Notes under the pieces: generated by a model
Databases searched by the model: none
What the model was told of the DNA's origin: nothing
What the model saw: the letters and a program-made list of their open reading frames with translations, nothing else
Shown here: one piece after another, positions 4,496 through 31,509 of the stretch
How positions within the stretch are numbered: position 1 is the first letter of the stretch
Layout of the letters: every line of letters begins with the position of its first letter
Position numbers and translations under genes: made by a program
Virus record (IMG/VR): IMGVR_UViG_3300042445_000551
Location: 1 to 37,454 of that record
DNA length: 37,454 nucleotides
Strand: one strand, 5' to 3'
Source: a virus

Positions 4496-5123
4496 AAATC
4501 CAGCCGTTTGAATGTCTCAGTGTCGAGGTGTGAGCACTGTTGTAGTGCATCTCAACCTCACAGAGAGCACCGCTAGACATTGCAATCCTTTTGTCAAGAC
4601 CTGCTATGGTGACGGAGTCTGCGGCATGGATGTGACCGAAGATGCATGAGCCGTAGACTAGAGCGTGTTGCCTGCAAGCGTTGATGCCGTGATGAAAGCC
4701 ATGGAGGAACCTAACGTTACCAAGCTGCAACACGCCTAACCGTTTGTGATAGGGTTTAACAACGCATTTGAGCTTCCCATAGAGTGCAGCAAGCTCGATG
4801 CAGCCTTTCATCGCGTAGTCTGCTTTAATGCCTGCTGTGTGATTCTCAGCGAGGTCATAGAGCCGCTTATCATGATTGCCTTCCAATACATAGTTAGGCT
4901 TCCAGACTCGCAGGAACTCACAACCTGCTGTCCAGTCTGCCTGCATGGACTCAGCCTGCTCTTCTGCGCCTGCTCCTCGTCTCAATGGTCTAAGGTCAAA
5001 GATGTCTCCACCGAAGATCTTGTCGTGCGGCTTAAACTCCTTTGTGAACTCATGGAGAGTATTTACCGTTGCACTGTCCTGCTTATCACCATGTAGATCA
5101 GTTGCAAAGATAAAGCGGCGCAT
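4395..5123 (-). CDS. Calcineurin-like metallophosphoesterase
   Basis: This 242-residue protein shows the full metallophosphoesterase motif series: D9-LHGD, GGDIFD (Asp40), EGNHDKR (Asn83-His84-Asp85), LHGFHHG (His141) and FGHIH (His164, His166). These residues bind two metal ions. Phage members are usually annotated as phosphatases or DNA nucleases. The substrate cannot be read here, but a DNA-end or nucleotide substrate would suit the adjoining recombination genes. It begins 2 nt after the stop of the giant virion gene, so late transcription may run straight into this block. Confidence 0.88.
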   Translation of the reverse strand: MRRFIFATDLHGDKQDSATVNTLHEFTKEFKPHDKIFGGDIFDLRPLRRGAGAEEQAESMQADWTAGCEFLRVWKPNYVLEGNHDKRLYDLAENHTAGIKADYAMKGCIELAALYGKLKCVVKPYHKRLGVLQLGNVRFLHGFHHGINACRQHALVYGSCIFGHIHAADSVTIAGLDKRIAMSSGALCEVEMHYNSAHTSTLRHSNGWIYGTINEKTGDWQAWHARKDITGKWFLPTGFKEF

Positions 5124-13308: not shown

Positions 13309-13630
13309 ATTTTGCTTTCATTTTGTTGAAGTTGTGAGCGTGATATTTAGTTAAACCATGACGTTGAAATACTGCATGCTCTAAAGCGTGAGGAGCTTTA
13401 ATCAGTATATCCTTAACTGAGCCAGAGGCAAGATGCACAAACCAGCCGTTATGTTTGTCAGTTAAAAAGAACGGTTTCACACCATCCCAATAACATTGTT
13501 GCATAAGGCAGAAGCTCTCATCGGATGAATAGACAACTCCATACTGAATGCAACTGCCTAACAATTCCTCGAAAGAGACTGCATCAGTCATGCCTTCAAG
13601 CCATTGTTTTGCTCGTTGCCATGGTTTCAT
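13292..13630 (-). CDS. Hypothetical protein in the structural region
   Basis: This is a 112-residue mixed alpha/beta protein with a WFVHLASG strand and a C-terminal HGLTKYHAHNFNKMKAKYG helix. In T7-like phages a small protein (gp13 type) occupies this place between nozzle/fibre and core protein genes, but I cannot see enough similarity to name it. It starts directly before the stop of the fibre gene without a gap. Confidence 0.6.
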   Translation of the reverse strand: MKPWQRAKQWLEGMTDAVSFEELLGSCIQYGVVYSSDESFCLMQQCYWDGVKPFFLTDKHNGWFVHLASGSVKDILIKAPHALEHAVFQRHGLTKYHAHNFNKMKAKYGIVT

Positions 13631-14968
13631 TTACCAAAGAGCGGTGAAGTTAAGGAAAGAATCTGCCTTTACTGGACCTGCTCCACCAGCATAAGAGAGA
13701 ATGCCAACGCCAAACCCATTAACTGTCTTGAAGAAAGCAGCATTTAGTCCTGTAGAATCACCTGATCCAATACCACAAACAGGCATTGTTAATGATGAAT
13801 TATTACTGCCAGTCTGAGCATATAGATTAATACAATAAGTTGAGGCACTTGGCTTGTTTGTGAAGTTGATCTGAACTGCTGTTGCCACATTTGATGGAGT
13901 TGCAGCATTGCCATAAACAGAATAGATATTGCCACCAACAAACGTGTAACCATACCAATTGACAGTTGTTGTCAGTGCGGTGGTTACAAGGGGAGTCGTT
14001 ACTGTAAATACAGTTGCGCTTACTCTTGTAGCTGAGTACCAACCAGCAGCGAATCCTGTAACTGCTGGGATATACAACACATCGCTAGTTCTGATTCCGT
14101 GAGCCGTGTTGGTTGTAATTGTAACCGTTGTGTAGTTCAGAATTCTCACTGCTGAACCTGAATAAGTTGTTACGGTTGCAGAGTGCGTTTCAATATTGCC
14201 AAAAGCACGAATCTGAAAGAATGAACTAACAGTCTTGAGTCTTCCACTGTCGCTTGAGTCTCTGATAAGAAACTCATCACCAGTCCCTTGTTCCACATTG
14301 GCAACGTTAACAGGAATATTACCTTGTAGCGGACCAGTCAGAGTCGAGTTAAGAATCAATGATTTCTCATACCATGTAACAGTTCCAGCCGTGTCACCAG
14401 CATCTGCGACTGTGACTGTAAACGCATCGGCGGATGTTACTGTCACACTATAAGTGCCATTTAGAATGCTACTAGCAATCGTAGTTCCAGTGAATACAAG
14501 ATAACGAGTATTGGTGCTGGTTAGGCCATGGGCAGTCTTATTGACGGTTAGTGTTGTTCCTGTTCTTGCCCACGTTGCACTTGTTACAGCAGCACCTCCA
14601 AGAGTTGTATCACTGCCAAAGCTAGATGTTGCGTTTACTGTTAGAGTATCTGTTGCAGCATCGCCAAGGATCGTATTACCATTTGCAGTCAATGCGCCAG
14701 ATAAGGTAGTTGCGCCAGTTACGGCAAGATCAACAGCAGTTGTGCCTGTTGGCAGGTTACTAGCAATGTTAGCAAATGTCACCTTCTTAGCAGGAGAAGC
14801 TCCAGCAGTAGCAATCAGGAACTCATCAGCAGGAGCTGGAGTAGCTACAGCATCTTGTCCTGAAATGAACGTTGCAAGAGGCTTGGCATCGACAACGTGG
14901 TTCGTCAGTGCATCAGCATTGAGGACGTTACCTTGAACGAATGTTTGTGTAGAAACGAGAGTAGGCAT
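13631..14968 (-). CDS. Tail fibre or spike protein
   Basis: The 445-residue protein is rich in Thr, Ala, Ser and Gly. It has the fibre-type repeat region 'LAVTGATTLSGALTANGN' and 'LGDAATDTLTVNAT' at about 80-120. Two copies of a ~70-residue beta module follow (about 129-200 and 265-345), each with 'TxTxxTAHG(L/I)' and '(S/A)T.FTVT'. The C-terminal ~100 residues lack repeats and would form the receptor-binding head. It likely forms a trimeric fibre. It ends without a gap at the next gene. Confidence 0.78.
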   Translation of the reverse strand: MPTLVSTQTFVQGNVLNADALTNHVVDAKPLATFISGQDAVATPAPADEFLIATAGASPAKKVTFANIASNLPTGTTAVDLAVTGATTLSGALTANGNTILGDAATDTLTVNATSSFGSDTTLGGAAVTSATWARTGTTLTVNKTAHGLTSTNTRYLVFTGTTIASSILNGTYSVTVTSADAFTVTVADAGDTAGTVTWYEKSLILNSTLTGPLQGNIPVNVANVEQGTGDEFLIRDSSDSGRLKTVSSFFQIRAFGNIETHSATVTTYSGSAVRILNYTTVTITTNTAHGIRTSDVLYIPAVTGFAAGWYSATRVSATVFTVTTPLVTTALTTTVNWYGYTFVGGNIYSVYGNAATPSNVATAVQINFTNKPSASTYCINLYAQTGSNNSSLTMPVCGIGSGDSTGLNAAFFKTVNGFGVGILSYAGGAGPVKADSFLNFTALW

Positions 14969-25470: not shown

Positions 25471-27120
25471 TTAATAAGAGCCTATTTCGCCTTGAGGTTG
25501 GTAGCTTTGACTGTTTTGATGGGTCGGATTCATCACCGCTAGATAGCGTAGAACGTCAACGGGATCTTTAGTTGCTCCCTTGTCTCCGTCTGCGCCCGTC
25601 CACTCTCGGAGTGAGTAAATGATGTTTTTGCACGTTTCACTAACGTAAAGGTTAGGCTCATTGTGAATAGCAAGCAAGGGTTCGTCCTTATTCCATGCTA
25701 ACCAGTTGTTAATAATGCTAACGCCTTCCTCGATTCGGAGTCCAGCAGCAGGTGTGAACCACATTGGGTCGGGATCTTCGGCTAGGAGGTCAGTCAGACT
25801 GGTTCCTCCATCCTTCCCGATAGCTTGAGTGCCACCTGCTCTAGGGTCAATAAACCTGTCAGTGATCTCTTCCTTACCTTCTAGCTCTTCGATGAGTGCT
25901 TTGTAGTCGTTGATGCCTCTACCAGCACCGTTTCGTTGTGCTGCGCCTGCTTTTCCGTCTGGTTTGTCGCTTGGAATAGCCCATTCACCTAGATCAATGC
26001 TGGGCCATTCACGATAGATGAACTTTCTACCGTGTTCGTCCACTCGGAGCCACAACATGAACCAGTTACGAGCACCAGCAGGATCCATTGCCATGTAATT
26101 TGTGCCCTTTTCGGGTATCTGATCGTCAGGAATCACGTTCCAGTTACCGAATTTAGGGAATTGGGAGCCTGAAAGACTCTCTGCCCATCCATAAGCACGG
26201 ATTTTGATCTCATAGTTGGTTCGTCCATGTAACGCTCGTTTAATCTCGGAGAATGGAGAGTAGACGTTAAGCTCCGAATGGAACCAGATAGCCCTGTTAC
26301 TCGGATTATGGCAGGTAGCTTGGAACGGCATCATCCCACGTTCACCACCAGGAAGGTTGATGGAGTCTTTGAGCAGTGAAGCTGGAAGCCATTTCGTGAT
26401 CATCGCACCTGCAATGTATTCTTTAACCACCGAAGTGTAGCCAGAGATGGGAGTAAAGGTCAGAATCATCTTACCTCGTCTCGTCGCCGTTCGGTAACGT
26501 AGCGTCTTGATCCAGTCAGCAGTGATTTCTTCGTCAATCCAGATCAAATCTACTTCACCACCTTCAATAACCTTGATGTCTTGAGACTGATTCAGGAACC
26601 AACACTGGCTTTTGTTAGGCAGAACGAAGGTGTTGTCAGAGAAGCCGTTCTTCTGCGTGAATGCTACGTTGGTTATCTTGGTTTTGCGGGCAGTCTTGAA
26701 CTCGGCTGGAAGGTATTTGTATACCACAGGCTGCTGCATCTGCACGCTGCTCATGTTGGTCGTATGGATGCACCAGACTCGTTTACCTGGGTTTTGCGAC
26801 AGGTATTGAGCTACTCGTTTAGCTGCATACTCAGTCTTAGACGCACGGTTCCCACCGAAGATCATCAACTCTGAGATAGCTTGGTCAGACAGCAGACCAT
26901 CAGCAATCTTCCAATGATCTGGCTCGTAGCCGTGCCTGTAAGGATCCATTGTCTCTGCCAGAATCTTATCCTCACGCAGTTGCAGCAACTCACAAGCACG
27001 GTCAATGCCCTTGTTTTTGATGATGTTCGCTATTGTCTCCGCACTCGGAGCGACCATGATAGGATGTGGCGTAGGCGTGTATTTGCCTAGCGTCTCTTTG
27101 GATACTTCGTTGATAAACAT
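25471..27120 (-). CDS. Terminase large subunit
   Basis: This 549-residue packaging motor shows a Walker A-type GGNRASKT at 89-96, a Walker B LIWIDEE at 192-198 and a coupling motif LTFTP at about 220. The C-terminal nuclease domain has Asp346 (MAMDPA), Asp425 (FIDPR) and an acidic DPVDVL near 519-523. It cuts and pumps phage DNA into the procapsid through the portal. A small subunit is not obvious beside it; the HTH protein at 31826-32287 is one candidate. Confidence 0.92.
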   Translation of the reverse strand: MFINEVSKETLGKYTPTPHPIMVAPSAETIANIIKNKGIDRACELLQLREDKILAETMDPYRHGYEPDHWKIADGLLSDQAISELMIFGGNRASKTEYAAKRVAQYLSQNPGKRVWCIHTTNMSSVQMQQPVVYKYLPAEFKTARKTKITNVAFTQKNGFSDNTFVLPNKSQCWFLNQSQDIKVIEGGEVDLIWIDEEITADWIKTLRYRTATRRGKMILTFTPISGYTSVVKEYIAGAMITKWLPASLLKDSINLPGGERGMMPFQATCHNPSNRAIWFHSELNVYSPFSEIKRALHGRTNYEIKIRAYGWAESLSGSQFPKFGNWNVIPDDQIPEKGTNYMAMDPAGARNWFMLWLRVDEHGRKFIYREWPSIDLGEWAIPSDKPDGKAGAAQRNGAGRGINDYKALIEELEGKEEITDRFIDPRAGGTQAIGKDGGTSLTDLLAEDPDPMWFTPAAGLRIEEGVSIINNWLAWNKDEPLLAIHNEPNLYVSETCKNIIYSLREWTGADGDKGATKDPVDVLRYLAVMNPTHQNSQSYQPQGEIGSY

Positions 27121-27409: not shown

Positions 27410-27598
27410 CTAGTTAAGCTCTGATCCCTCAGACCTAACGCACGCACAATTTAGCTTCTCAAGGACTTTTTCCGCGAAATCTTGATCTAGTCCAAAGTCG
27501 GAGATGTAGTCGAGGAACTCAGGATAGAACTCTTCGATAAACAAAGCCATCGCATCCAGTTCCCTTATCGTAAACCTAATTGAGTCAGTCGCTTTCAT
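27410..27598 (-). CDS. Small acidic hypothetical protein, first of the late gene block
   Basis: This 62-residue acidic helical protein (FTIRELDAMALFIEEFYPEF, then LDYISDFGLDQDFAEKVLEK) is the first gene after the large noncoding gap and so would be the first late gene translated. A weak minus-strand promoter-like pair (TTGCTA and TACTTT, 16 nt apart) lies upstream. Function unknown. Confidence 0.55.
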   Translation of the reverse strand: MKATDSIRFTIRELDAMALFIEEFYPEFLDYISDFGLDQDFAEKVLEKLNCACVRSEGSELN

Positions 27599-27657
27599 TT
27601 TTGAGAAAGTAAGTCACGAATAAAGGCTAGCAAGGGTGAGATTGCCTCTTGTTCCAG

Positions 27658-27685
27658 TTGACACATAGCTCTAAAGTCACATCAT
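27658..27685 (+). promoter_or_regulatory. Plus-strand sigma70-like promoter for the small RNA
   Basis: A perfect TTGACA at 27658-27663 is followed after 16 nt by CATCAT at 27680-27685 (4 of 6 to the -10 consensus). TAGATA and GATAAT lie just beyond, at longer spacing. The predicted start near 27692 falls directly before the first stem of the RNA and 85 nt before a strong terminator in the same direction. All genes run the other way. Confidence 0.5.
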
Positions 27686-27691
27686 AGATAA

Positions 27692-27777
27692 TGGTTTGCT
27701 CTGTGGGATCGGAGTGATCTGCTCTACTTGCAAACCGCAACTAGTCCGACTTTGATCCCGCGAAGTCGGGCTTTTTG
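27692..27777 (+). ncRNA. Candidate plus-strand small structured RNA
   Basis: About 86 nt can fold into two hairpins. Stem 1 pairs GGTTTGC (27693-27699) with GCAAACC (27730-27736), 7 bp perfect, with an inner GGATC/GATCT stem and loop GGAGT (27706-27720). Stem 2 is the 10-bp terminator hairpin (27743-27772) followed by a U-run. The exposed GGAGT loop resembles an anti-SD or SD-like site and could pair with mRNA or rRNA; that is speculation. There is no ORF inside. It is antisense to the leader region of the late operon. Confidence 0.6.
27743..27776 (+). terminator. Strong intrinsic terminator on the plus strand
   Basis: Bases 27743-27752 pair with 27763-27772 over 10 bp (one G-U), centred on CCGACTT/AAGTCGG, with a 10-nt loop, and the stem runs directly into TTTTTG then TTT. 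Read on the minus strand the stem is followed by ACTAGTTGC, with no U-run, so it acts only for plus-strand transcripts, although no protein gene runs that way. Confidence 0.75.
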
Positions 27778-27802
27778 TTTGTTGGGCATCTCTGCCTAAA
27801 AT
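27775..27802 (+). promoter_or_regulatory. Weak plus-strand promoter candidate for the second structured segment
   Basis: TTGTTT (27775-27780), 16 nt, then TAAAAT (27797-27802). The -10 part is good (5 of 6); the -35 part is poor and overlaps the terminator U-run. The predicted start coincides with the first arm of the next inverted repeat. Confidence 0.3.
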
Positions 27803-27803
27803 A

Positions 27804-28101
27804 ACCTTCAGTGTCACTGCGTTGTGCTCCATGGGAAGGTGTTGGGATTTCGGTGGACGATGGATAACAGATCAGTCGTCCTAAAGTCGCAGGTGAAAGC
27901 CTGGGCTGCTACTTGAATCGTTTGATCCGTGTTTACTGAGACAACCGAGCGGAGAGATTCAAGTTTTGCGATGATGTTCCTGATTCCTGACGAATAAGAA
28001 ACTAAACGCTAGCAGTATCCCAGCAATGGGACTGCTATGCTCAAATGAAGCCATCCAGCCATCGGAATAAGTGTTGAACTATCAAGGAATCCTTGTCAGT
28101 T
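27804..28101. ncRNA. Series of inverted repeats, possible structured RNA of about 300 nt
   Basis: Paired segments in order are: ACCTTC/GAAGGT (27804-27809 with 27835-27840); GGACGA/TCGTCC (27855-27860 with 27876-27881); CAGG/CCTG (27890-27903); ACTTGAATC/GATTCAAGT, 9 bp (27911-27919 with 27956-27964), enclosing TCCG/CGGA; AGCAGT-CCCA/TGGG-ACTGCT closed by GCAA (28011-28036); and AACT-CAAGG/CCTTG-AGTT (28077-28101). The GCAA closing loop is a GNRA tetraloop only on the plus strand, which favours that strand. I do not recognise tmRNA, RNase P, 6S or a group I intron core. Confidence 0.45.
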
Positions 28102-28223: not shown

Positions 28224-28451
28224 TCATTTCGTTGACATCAACAAGATTCTTCTGAGATTTTGGTTTTCAGTCAGTGCCGCCATGAGCGTTTCCTGTCGGT
28301 TGATTAGGCGTTCATTGAGTTCGGTGATTTCGCGTTCGAGTTGGCGGGCGAAGGTGTAAGTCTTTGCAAGTTCGACGTCAAAGTCTTCTGATTTCATTGC
28401 AACTGAGTGTGCATCTGTTCGTGGTGTTGGTGTTGGTGTTGGTGTTATCAT
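28224..28451 (-). CDS. Small accessory protein, TPxTD/coiled-coil family
   Basis: This 75-residue protein starts with a Thr-Pro run coded by a ggtgtt-type repeat, then TPRTDAHSV and a coiled coil FARQLEREITELNERL. The same layout (TPETD ... FARKLERERD) occurs in the protein at 36070-36336, so the two are paralogues. An exceptionally clear Shine-Dalgarno sequence (GGAAAGGAGC) precedes the ATG, unlike most genes here. It overlaps the methyltransferase stop by ATGA. Function unknown. Confidence 0.65.
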   Translation of the reverse strand: MITPTPTPTPRTDAHSVAMKSEDFDVELAKTYTFARQLEREITELNERLINRQETLMAALTENQNLRRILLMSTK

Positions 28452-29152
28452 AGTTGCTCCTTTCCGCCCTCCTCATGGGAGAGCTTGGTGTTCTCCCAAT
28501 GGAATGCCATTGCAGCGGCGATCCCTGGGTAAGTGGTGGATCTCAGCTTCCAGCGGTCATCACTGGGCGCGAGTTTGTTCTGTCCGCCGTCCGTCTGGTT
28601 TGCCCATCGGGGCTTTCCATTCACGATCCGAGGCGGGACGTTTTCCGTTGGCTGGAGCTTCGGGAGGTTTTTCAGCCACAGGCACGTTGCCTTGCTGGCA
28701 TCATGCCCGAACTGGTGCGGGTGGATGATTTGATCCGGCTTGCGGATTCGGCTGGAGATGATCGACACCGGGTTTTCCAGCGCGATGCGCGGGATGTTTG
28801 CACCCATGAGCAGGCGCACGAAGTCCAGGGCTTTTTCTGTCTCTTCCCATCCGCGCCCGCGATTGTTCCAGTGGATTCCCGATACGCTCAGATAGGTGCA
28901 TGGCGGGTGGCAGATCATCAGATCCCATCCATCATCCAGCACGTCGCGCACATCGCCTTGATAGTGCTTTCCGGGCTTGTCCGTTGGCAGTATGTCGCAG
29001 CTCATCGCGTCGTGTCCACGGGCGGCGAAGGCATCCCGGACGGTGCCGGAATACTCGCACGCCACCAACACCCTAAAAGGGAGAACAAGACGCTGCATGG
29101 AACGCCGAGGAGCGTCCTGCGCGAGTTCGAGAGTCATTTGGTCGGCGTCCAT
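28448..29152 (-). CDS. C5-cytosine DNA methyltransferase-like protein
   Basis: The 234-residue protein has an AdoMet-site start RVLVACEYSGTVRDAF (about 27-42), SCDILP at 51-56, GDVRDVLDDGWDLMICHPPC (66-85) with the Pro-Cys motif of C5 methyltransferases, and ALENP at 124-128, equivalent to the ENV motif. It is shorter than restriction-associated enzymes and its target recognition region is reduced. It could protect phage DNA from host restriction. It is GC-richer than its surroundings and shares a small patch with other accessory genes, so it was probably acquired. Confidence 0.8.
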   Translation of the reverse strand: MDADQMTLELAQDAPRRSMQRLVLPFRVLVACEYSGTVRDAFAARGHDAMSCDILPTDKPGKHYQGDVRDVLDDGWDLMICHPPCTYLSVSGIHWNNRGRGWEETEKALDFVRLLMGANIPRIALENPVSIISSRIRKPDQIIHPHQFGHDASKATCLWLKNLPKLQPTENVPPRIVNGKPRWANQTDGGQNKLAPSDDRWKLRSTTYPGIAAAMAFHWENTKLSHEEGGKEQL

Positions 29153-31035: not shown

Positions 31036-31509
31036 TTAAGGTAAGAGAATAAATGCTGCAATGTGACGACCTATGCCCTTGCCAATGCTACCATCTTCAG
31101 TAGCCAGCCAGCGAACATCTCCAAGATTTCGGACATTCATTACTCCTATGCTTTTTAGCATCATCAGCACCCACGTGTCCACTGGATAGACCACCACGGA
31201 GAGCTTGCCCTTGGCTTGCTCCTCTATGGCTTTCCGCATCCATGCGGTCGGGCCTTTCTTCTTCCCTTGGTGCATAATCGAACCAAAGGGAGGATTTACC
31301 CAGTTTCGCTGCCCCCATTCACAGGTCAGCCCATCGAAGTCGTCAGGTTTAGGATATGGACATGGATCAAAGTCAAATGGACCGTAATCAGCTACTAATT
31401 GAGCTATTGCAGGCTCATCCCACGGAGTCAGCCAGTAGTGTTTGCCGTCCTGACTATTGCCCTTGTGAAACTTGTTCAAAGCAGGTTGAAGTTGAGATTG
31501 ATGATTCAT
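31036..31509 (-). CDS. Phage DNA N6-adenine methyltransferase (Dam type)
   Basis: The 157-residue protein fits the phage Dam family: YWLTPWDE (25-32), the AdoMet-binding FDFDPC (45-50), RNWVNPPFG with the catalytic NPPF at 72-75, then a Rossmann-like strand LSVVVYPVDTWV and a C-terminal HIAAFIL. It would methylate adenine in phage DNA, giving protection from restriction or marking the DNA. It is separated by 27-49 nt from its neighbours and starts without a clear Shine-Dalgarno. Confidence 0.85.
   Translation of the reverse strand: MNHQSQLQPALNKFHKGNSQDGKHYWLTPWDEPAIAQLVADYGPFDFDPCPYPKPDDFDGLTCEWGQRNWVNPPFGSIMHQGKKKGPTAWMRKAIEEQAKGKLSVVVYPVDTWVLMMLKSIGVMNVRNLGDVRWLATEDGSIGKGIGRHIAAFILLP

Follow-up and report, generated by a model that had tools for sequence, protein, structure and literature searches.

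Several kinds of RNA invite comparison with the element described here. In plasmid control of the ColE1 RNA I/RNA II type the kissing loops are complementary and type-specific, and HEARO and OMEGA RNAs are structured RNAs that lie beside an HNH gene in a mobile unit. GOLLD, ROOL and OLE are the large structured RNAs nearest in kind, although this implies no membership (PMC12286853); GOLLD and ROOL have kissing contacts supported by covariation, and in GOLLD conservation is higher in the 3' part than in the 5' part (PMC12286853). In packaging RNAs (pRNAs) of the phi29 type, likewise among the nearest in kind but not in membership, the complementary loops vary among relatives with their complementarity kept (PMC5340915). 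Plasmid copy-control antisense RNAs carry type-specific, fast-diverging kissing elements that give orthogonality of co-resident elements (for example PMC9458437). Phage regulatory sRNAs such as P1/P7 c4, AgvB, STnc6030 and CfrI have their own signals, and one of them is linked to a homing endonuclease gene (PMC12197685).

The window is the whole 37,454-nucleotide stretch of viral DNA that was analysed. Its larger genes all lie on the minus strand, and the genes flanking the site show a podovirus-like layout, with major head protein, scaffold and minor head genes (PHROGs) and a DnaB-type helicase. A 549-aa protein (25471-27120) found no useful match in databases and is called terminase-like only by its position before a portal-sized 711-aa protein. 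Two DNA methyltransferase-like genes (28448-29152 and 31036-31509, minus strand) lie in the early region. On the plus strand, a predicted non-coding transcript with its own promoter and terminator, RNA1, is strongly supported at 27658-27780, and a second structured RNA, RNA2, follows it. The reading we favour, to which we give about an even chance, is that the site is RNA1 as the 5' module of a portable two-part unit (promoter, RNA1, RNA2) with a pseudoknot that serves as a type tag. The predicted features are as follows.

27592..27647, strand not given: leader common to the window and L012, a relative without RNA1 and RNA2; the left edge of the variable unit falls after GATTGCCT (27647)
27658..27685, plus: sigma-70-like promoter, TTGACA at 27658-27663, 16 nt, then CATCAT at 27680-27685; predicted start about 27692-27693
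27684..27780, plus: RNA1, covariance-model match (89.5 bits, E 1e-18); predicted RNA from about 27693 to 27776-27780
27693..27699, plus: 5' strand of hairpin P1, GGTTTGC, pairing with 27730-27736
27702..27715, plus: X strand of the pseudoknot, core GTGGGATC at 27703-27710, full complementary stretch TGTGGGATCGGAGT, complementary to 27749-27762
27730..27736, plus: 3' strand of P1, GCAAACC, pairing with 27693-27699
27743..27752, plus: 5' strand of terminator hairpin P3, AGTCCGACTT, from the terminator scan and covariation
27754..27761, plus: Y, apical-loop segment of P3, GATCCCGC, partner of X; all 6 in-register pairs changed on both sides
27763..27780, plus: 3' strand of P3, AAGTCGGGCT, and U-tract CTTTTTGTTT (U-tract 27771-27780), intrinsic terminator
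27784..28042, plus: RNA2, closed by GGGCA (27784-27788) and TGCTC (28038-28042); conservation continues to about 28060

The perfect TTGACA with a plausible -10, the 7-bp hairpin and the 10-bp terminator with U-run that an earlier note had described on the plus strand were all located, between 27658 and 27780. RNA1 shows what marks an intrinsically terminated small RNA of the bacterial type, a promoter of its own and a G+C-rich hairpin followed by a 3' U-tract. P3 has 10 nested pairs (27743-27752 with 27763-27772; 12 counting two inner ones) and is the top-scoring site of the terminator scan. Its U-tract exists on the plus strand only, in agreement with the claim that the terminator works in one direction; in the RNA1 of L024 and L160 the U-tract is weak. 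The RNA at 27690-27777 folds at -37.1 kcal/mol (z = -5.07), with 0 of 200 shuffles equally stable; for the minus strand of the same stretch, z = -1.39. The region has no excess of promoter-like sites as a class (10 observed, 19.2 expected), so the single promoter match is weak evidence alone. In 34 homologous copies, promoter scores directly 5' of P1 have a mean of 9.4; random positions in the same loci give 6.5 (sd 1.2). TTGAC with a -10-like box is retained 5' of P1 in most homologues.

A search with the 549-aa terminase-like protein gathered 31 IMG/VR loci, and in most of these an alignment of the gap revealed RNA1; further copies came from two scans in which viral contigs were searched with DNA patterns. 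(Many hits of the loose viral pattern scan, without a strong terminator and without complementarity, were set aside as chance.) On folding single copies, the strand behind P1 (X) was noticed to be complementary to the loop of the P3 terminator, with letters that differ among phages. This X:Y pseudoknot of 7-9 bp is hypervariable, yet complementary in every homologue: the two halves read GTGGGATC/GATCCCGC in the window, GTAGAGC/GCTCTAC in L003, GTTGCAG/CTGCAAC in L005, GTTACTGC/GCAGTAAC in L010, TCTAGCAGG/CCTGCTAGA in L018 and GGACTAG/CTAGTCC in L042. An inner stem with a GGAGT loop, which the earlier note had counted as a feature, is not what is conserved; 27703-27710 pairs with the terminator loop at 27754-27761 instead. 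RNA1 is almost certainly built, as its covariation predicts, of P1 and the terminator hairpin P3, with X paired to the apical loop of P3 in a pseudoknot or kissing helix.

The RNA1 covariance model contains P1 and P3 only, replacing an earlier RNAalifold-based model without P1; the pseudoknot columns were added to the alignment afterwards, and the pseudoknot was never a selection criterion in gathering copies. Matches to the model in IMG/VR number 42 (27 distinct) and include L016, L024, L025 and L027, which were outside the model-building set. In the alignment 98.1% of cells are paired, against 33-42% with the partner slid, and 16 of 22 pairs have compensatory changes on both sides; 0 of 500 shuffles reach the observed values. 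Double compensation affects 3 of 7 pairs in P1 (99.5% of cells paired), 7 of 9 in P3 (100%) and 6 of 6 in the pseudoknot. The constancy of P1 and of the tail is partly a selection effect, because some pattern hits were chosen for a conserved P1 and tail. In an alignment-free test the native X:Y combinations score 272.6; 20,000 re-pairings never exceed 196, and shuffled X sequences never exceed 157. For 13 diverged copies the native combinations reach 123 and permutations at most 103. Loss of the stems in relatives would have spoken against the small RNA, as first proposed; the stems are kept, with covariation, in the RNA1 homologues.

X and Y are frequently complementary over 10-14 nt, and the match then runs on into the upper part of P3's 5' strand. 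This extension, and the order of promoter, terminator, structured RNA and gene, would suit an attenuating leader, in which P3 is the default stop and a signal moves X onto the 5' half of P3 to let transcription into RNA2 and a nuclease gene. Yet the extended pairing spares the lower P3 stem, at least 6-7 pairs beside the U-tract, so that X meets only the loop and upper stem and provides no alternative that dismantles the terminator. In L157, moreover, the entire 14-15 nt complement lies inside the P3 loop and competes with nothing, and the unit is kept where no gene stands behind it, as in the window. Attenuation is thus an unlikely role. The P3 loop, of about 9-12 nt, accommodates a kissing helix of 7-9 bp, and such a helix would be no antiterminator and should not block termination, because the lower stem stays intact.

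No target of RNA1 outside itself was found: X and Y pair with RNA2 no better than chance, and the window holds no second site longer than 10 nt. The only pointer to action in trans is the hypervariability, which suggests it. An ordinary trans-acting regulatory sRNA would pair with mRNAs of host or phage through a seed in the Y loop, with X as an internal mask, the terminator tail as a chaperone site and RNA2 unrelated. RNA1 resembles enterobacterial sRNAs in size, promoter, terminator and U-tail, its loop is a typical seed site, and fast turnover of X and Y is compatible with changing targets. A seed against a conserved host mRNA should itself be conserved, however, whereas X and Y are hypervariable and have no second site in the phage; an independent sRNA would also need no RNA2, which stands behind RNA1 in the loci read. 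We consider this role improbable. For the phage sRNAs c4, AgvB, STnc6030 and CfrI, targets are known or have been proposed, and these RNAs pair with them as antisense RNAs or sponges; RNA1, by contrast, pairs with itself.

The type-tag reading draws instead on how quickly the pairing sequence turns over. Between the window and L003, RNA2 is 99% identical, RNA1 73% and the DNA preceding RNA1 79%, with similar values for L009-L013, L005-L011 and L008-L014; over the four pairs RNA2 is 99-100% identical and RNA1 70-80%. Phages whose terminase-like protein is at least 96% identical have at least five X/Y types among them, and one RNA1 type is common to L003 and L037, which are different phages. Whole RNA1 alleles therefore seem to be exchanged with their halves kept matched, given that RNA2 stays near-identical while RNA1 diverges and that a type is shared by L003 and L037. 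These comparisons demonstrate that alleles exchange the putative pairing sequence far more rapidly than the neighbouring DNA changes. A structural pseudoknot drifts slowly. Exchange of alleles among near-identical neighbours looks like selection for difference, of the sort seen in incompatibility or immunity loops. In the ColE1 type a second RNA, transcribed off the opposite strand, is the partner; RNA1 differs in holding both halves in one RNA, with no known replication origin nearby.

RNA2 starts 3 nt past the U-tract of RNA1, on the same strand. A consensus fold of 16 sequences of the window's class has 61 pairs, with 98.9% of cells paired and 26 of the 61 doubly compensated (0 of 500 shuffles). 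G.U cells far exceed A.C cells (101 vs 1), and RNA2 is therefore read on the plus strand like RNA1. Folding of the single sequence (z = -2.06 and -1.83 for the two strands) is insufficient alone to reveal the structure. The covariation establishes RNA2 as a separate predicted domain, folded on the same strand as RNA1, compact and many-branched. The earlier proposal of a self-contained small RNA accordingly holds for the promoter and terminator of its own, less so for its isolation, with RNA2 (27784-28042) following it. No promoter of RNA2's own was seen, and for that reason RNA1 might be a mere 5' domain of one long RNA in which P3 terminates inefficiently. Other forms of RNA2 occupy the equivalent place in other phages. 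In L148, L055 and L039 the core motif stands behind a different 5' domain, so that at least these belong to one family with exchangeable 5' parts. In L055 (minus strand; class D RNA2) the 5' domain has an 18-bp stem around a T-arm-like hairpin, ACTGGTTCAAGTCCAGT. RNA2 of the second class (L150-L164) ends at its 3' side in a G-tract, GGGGAGGAGGGAGGGGTTTGG, which resembles sequences that form R-loops or quadruplexes and could matter for replication or termination.

New phages were found by scanning with the RNA2 sequence alone. Nearly all RNA2-core loci with upstream DNA available have an RNA1-like terminator and a complementary upstream strand (L155 is ambiguous); in the RNA2-core loci listed, RNA1 is directly upstream, some with a longer RNA2 5' domain between. 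In L037, L039, L148, L154, L158 and L162 the unit lies next to an apparent gene for the major head protein and on the strand opposite to it (head protein confirmed by profile in L162, L154 and also L146). It lies between portal and terminase in L151, among tail-like genes in L157 and L163, and inside plus-strand operons in L153 and L167. The unit is thus demonstrably found, as predicted from sequence, at unrelated places in unrelated phages, and is portable.

In some relatives a small gene, for a nuclease or another product, stands behind RNA2; the nuclease genes are HNH in L005, L037 and L083 (over the Pfam cut-off), T5orf172/MUG113 (GIY-YIG type) in L155, and HSDR_N-like (PD-(D/E)XK-like) in L018, a weak match below the cut-off. 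The window has no gene of nuclease kind there. These genes are small stand-alone ORFs of several types and often absent, and they are not of the IscB/IsrB type; in this, and in the want of an Rfam match for RNA1 and RNA2, the unit differs from HEARO and OMEGA. L083 also has a match to the type-P1 twister ribozyme at 4782-4846 (minus strand; 48.3 bits, E 8.6e-8), below the gathering score of 67.2. Interchangeable HNH, GIY-YIG and PD-(D/E)XK-like genes recall mobile introns, and with the compact, many-branched RNA2 they raise the thought that RNA1 and RNA2 make up a ribozyme, such as a self-splicing intron, accompanied by a homing endonuclease. The group I intron model RF00028, which gave matches in control genomes, found 0 of 8 records at E 10, however, and no other Rfam ribozyme appeared in RNA2. 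In the loci read, the unit lies between genes, mostly against the direction of its neighbours, and no split gene was seen. An intron or other ribozyme is quite improbable on these grounds.

The Rfam comparison proposed in the earlier note was run: the window has no family match at the gathering cut-off, and neither gathering nor relaxed thresholds gave anything convincing for RNA1 or RNA2. The best sub-threshold match for RNA1 was STnc70, in L018 only (27.7 bits vs 40). A DNA search of 50,697 annotated phages returned coding flanks only and no RNA1 or RNA2. A scan of prokaryote genomes with the RNA1 pattern gave 35 hits, rejected as chance, none having a strong terminator and a complementary loop. 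Like GOLLD and ROOL, the unit is phage-encoded, structured and non-coding, with kissing contacts, and it shares with GOLLD the contrast between 3' and 5' conservation. GOLLD and ROOL are much longer, often near tRNA islands, and in Rfam; RNA1 and RNA2 match neither of those models, are often near head genes, and begin with a small pseudoknotted terminator module.

Occupancy of the site varies among close relatives. In L012 (terminase-like protein 96% identical), compared with L006, L011, L014, L013 and L030, which carry differing RNA2 forms, the flanks are joined directly, without promoter, RNA1 or RNA2, and the late-gene leader is kept. L002 and L004 (99% identical; fragments) have other DNA at this place. 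It is because their slot holds unrelated DNA that we regard the place as a cargo site; in L004, and also L002, that DNA includes a possible small minus-strand gene. The long contigs of the terminase-like group (L006, L008, L009, L018, L020, L021, L022 and L047) all carry RNA1, and with L012, L002 and L004 lacking it, RNA1 is common but not fixed here.

This pattern bears on two further readings. RNA1 stands where early and late genes adjoin, on the strand facing the leader that precedes the late block, and had been suggested in the earlier note to be an antisense regulator of the early-late switch. That suggestion now has hardly any probability: L012 keeps the late leader without the unit, L002 and L004 have other DNA, RNA1 stands in other gene contexts elsewhere, and its variable part fits RNA1 itself rather than the opposite transcript. 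An anti-host RNA, another role named in the earlier note, is conceivable. A packaging or morphogenesis RNA forming multimers through X of one molecule and Y of the next, as in phi29 pRNA, is conceivable but very unlikely. Phi29-type pRNAs also vary in type-specific complementary loops (PMC5340915) and are likewise small phage RNAs, the unit is often among head genes, and the long contigs of the terminase-like family carry it. Against this, it is missing there in L002, L004 and L012 despite 96-99% identical terminase-like proteins (although these are fragments); elsewhere the unit also occupies tail-like and early regions, and some of the phages that carry it have unrelated terminases. Moreover, contacts between pRNA molecules join loop with loop and are arranged around a three-way junction, whereas RNA1 consists of two successive hairpins in which the terminator loop is paired by X, an internal strand and no loop; RNA1 has RNA2 behind it, its carriers have unrelated packaging genes, and no sequence or Rfam link to pRNA was found.

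Comparative sequence supports the structure, co-occurrence, portability and allele swapping, and from these we infer a mechanism for the type-tagged unit. Host polymerase would start at about 27692, and most transcripts would end at P3; the product would be an abundant RNA of about 88 nt, pseudoknotted, with its two ends tied together by the kissing helix. Leak-through past P3 would yield RNA2, plus the nuclease mRNA where the gene is present. X and Y would act as a recognition tag specific to each type, allowing RNA1 to find same-type copies in cis or in trans, and different element types would thereby avoid each other in co-infected cells; such a tag is suggested by the fast, allele-like turnover of X and Y, as in the type-specific loops of plasmid control RNAs. 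More tentatively, and with rather less than even probability, this may be a new class of mobile RNA-based phage element, made of a promoter, a self-terminating RNA with a hypervariable tag helix and a folded RNA2, which acquires homing nuclease genes and settles between head genes of unrelated phages. The result is an unannotated RNA family across many uncultivated phages with an unusually clear covariation signal in its pseudoknot, and it bears on the movement of RNA units from phage to phage, whether or not a nuclease gene goes with them. The swapping of a pairing that needs only to match itself poses a question on RNA-based specificity in co-infected cells. As a separate observation, G005 (71,619 bp) apparently has two units, one at 13582-13683 and the L160 unit near 57 kb, with differing pairing sequences.
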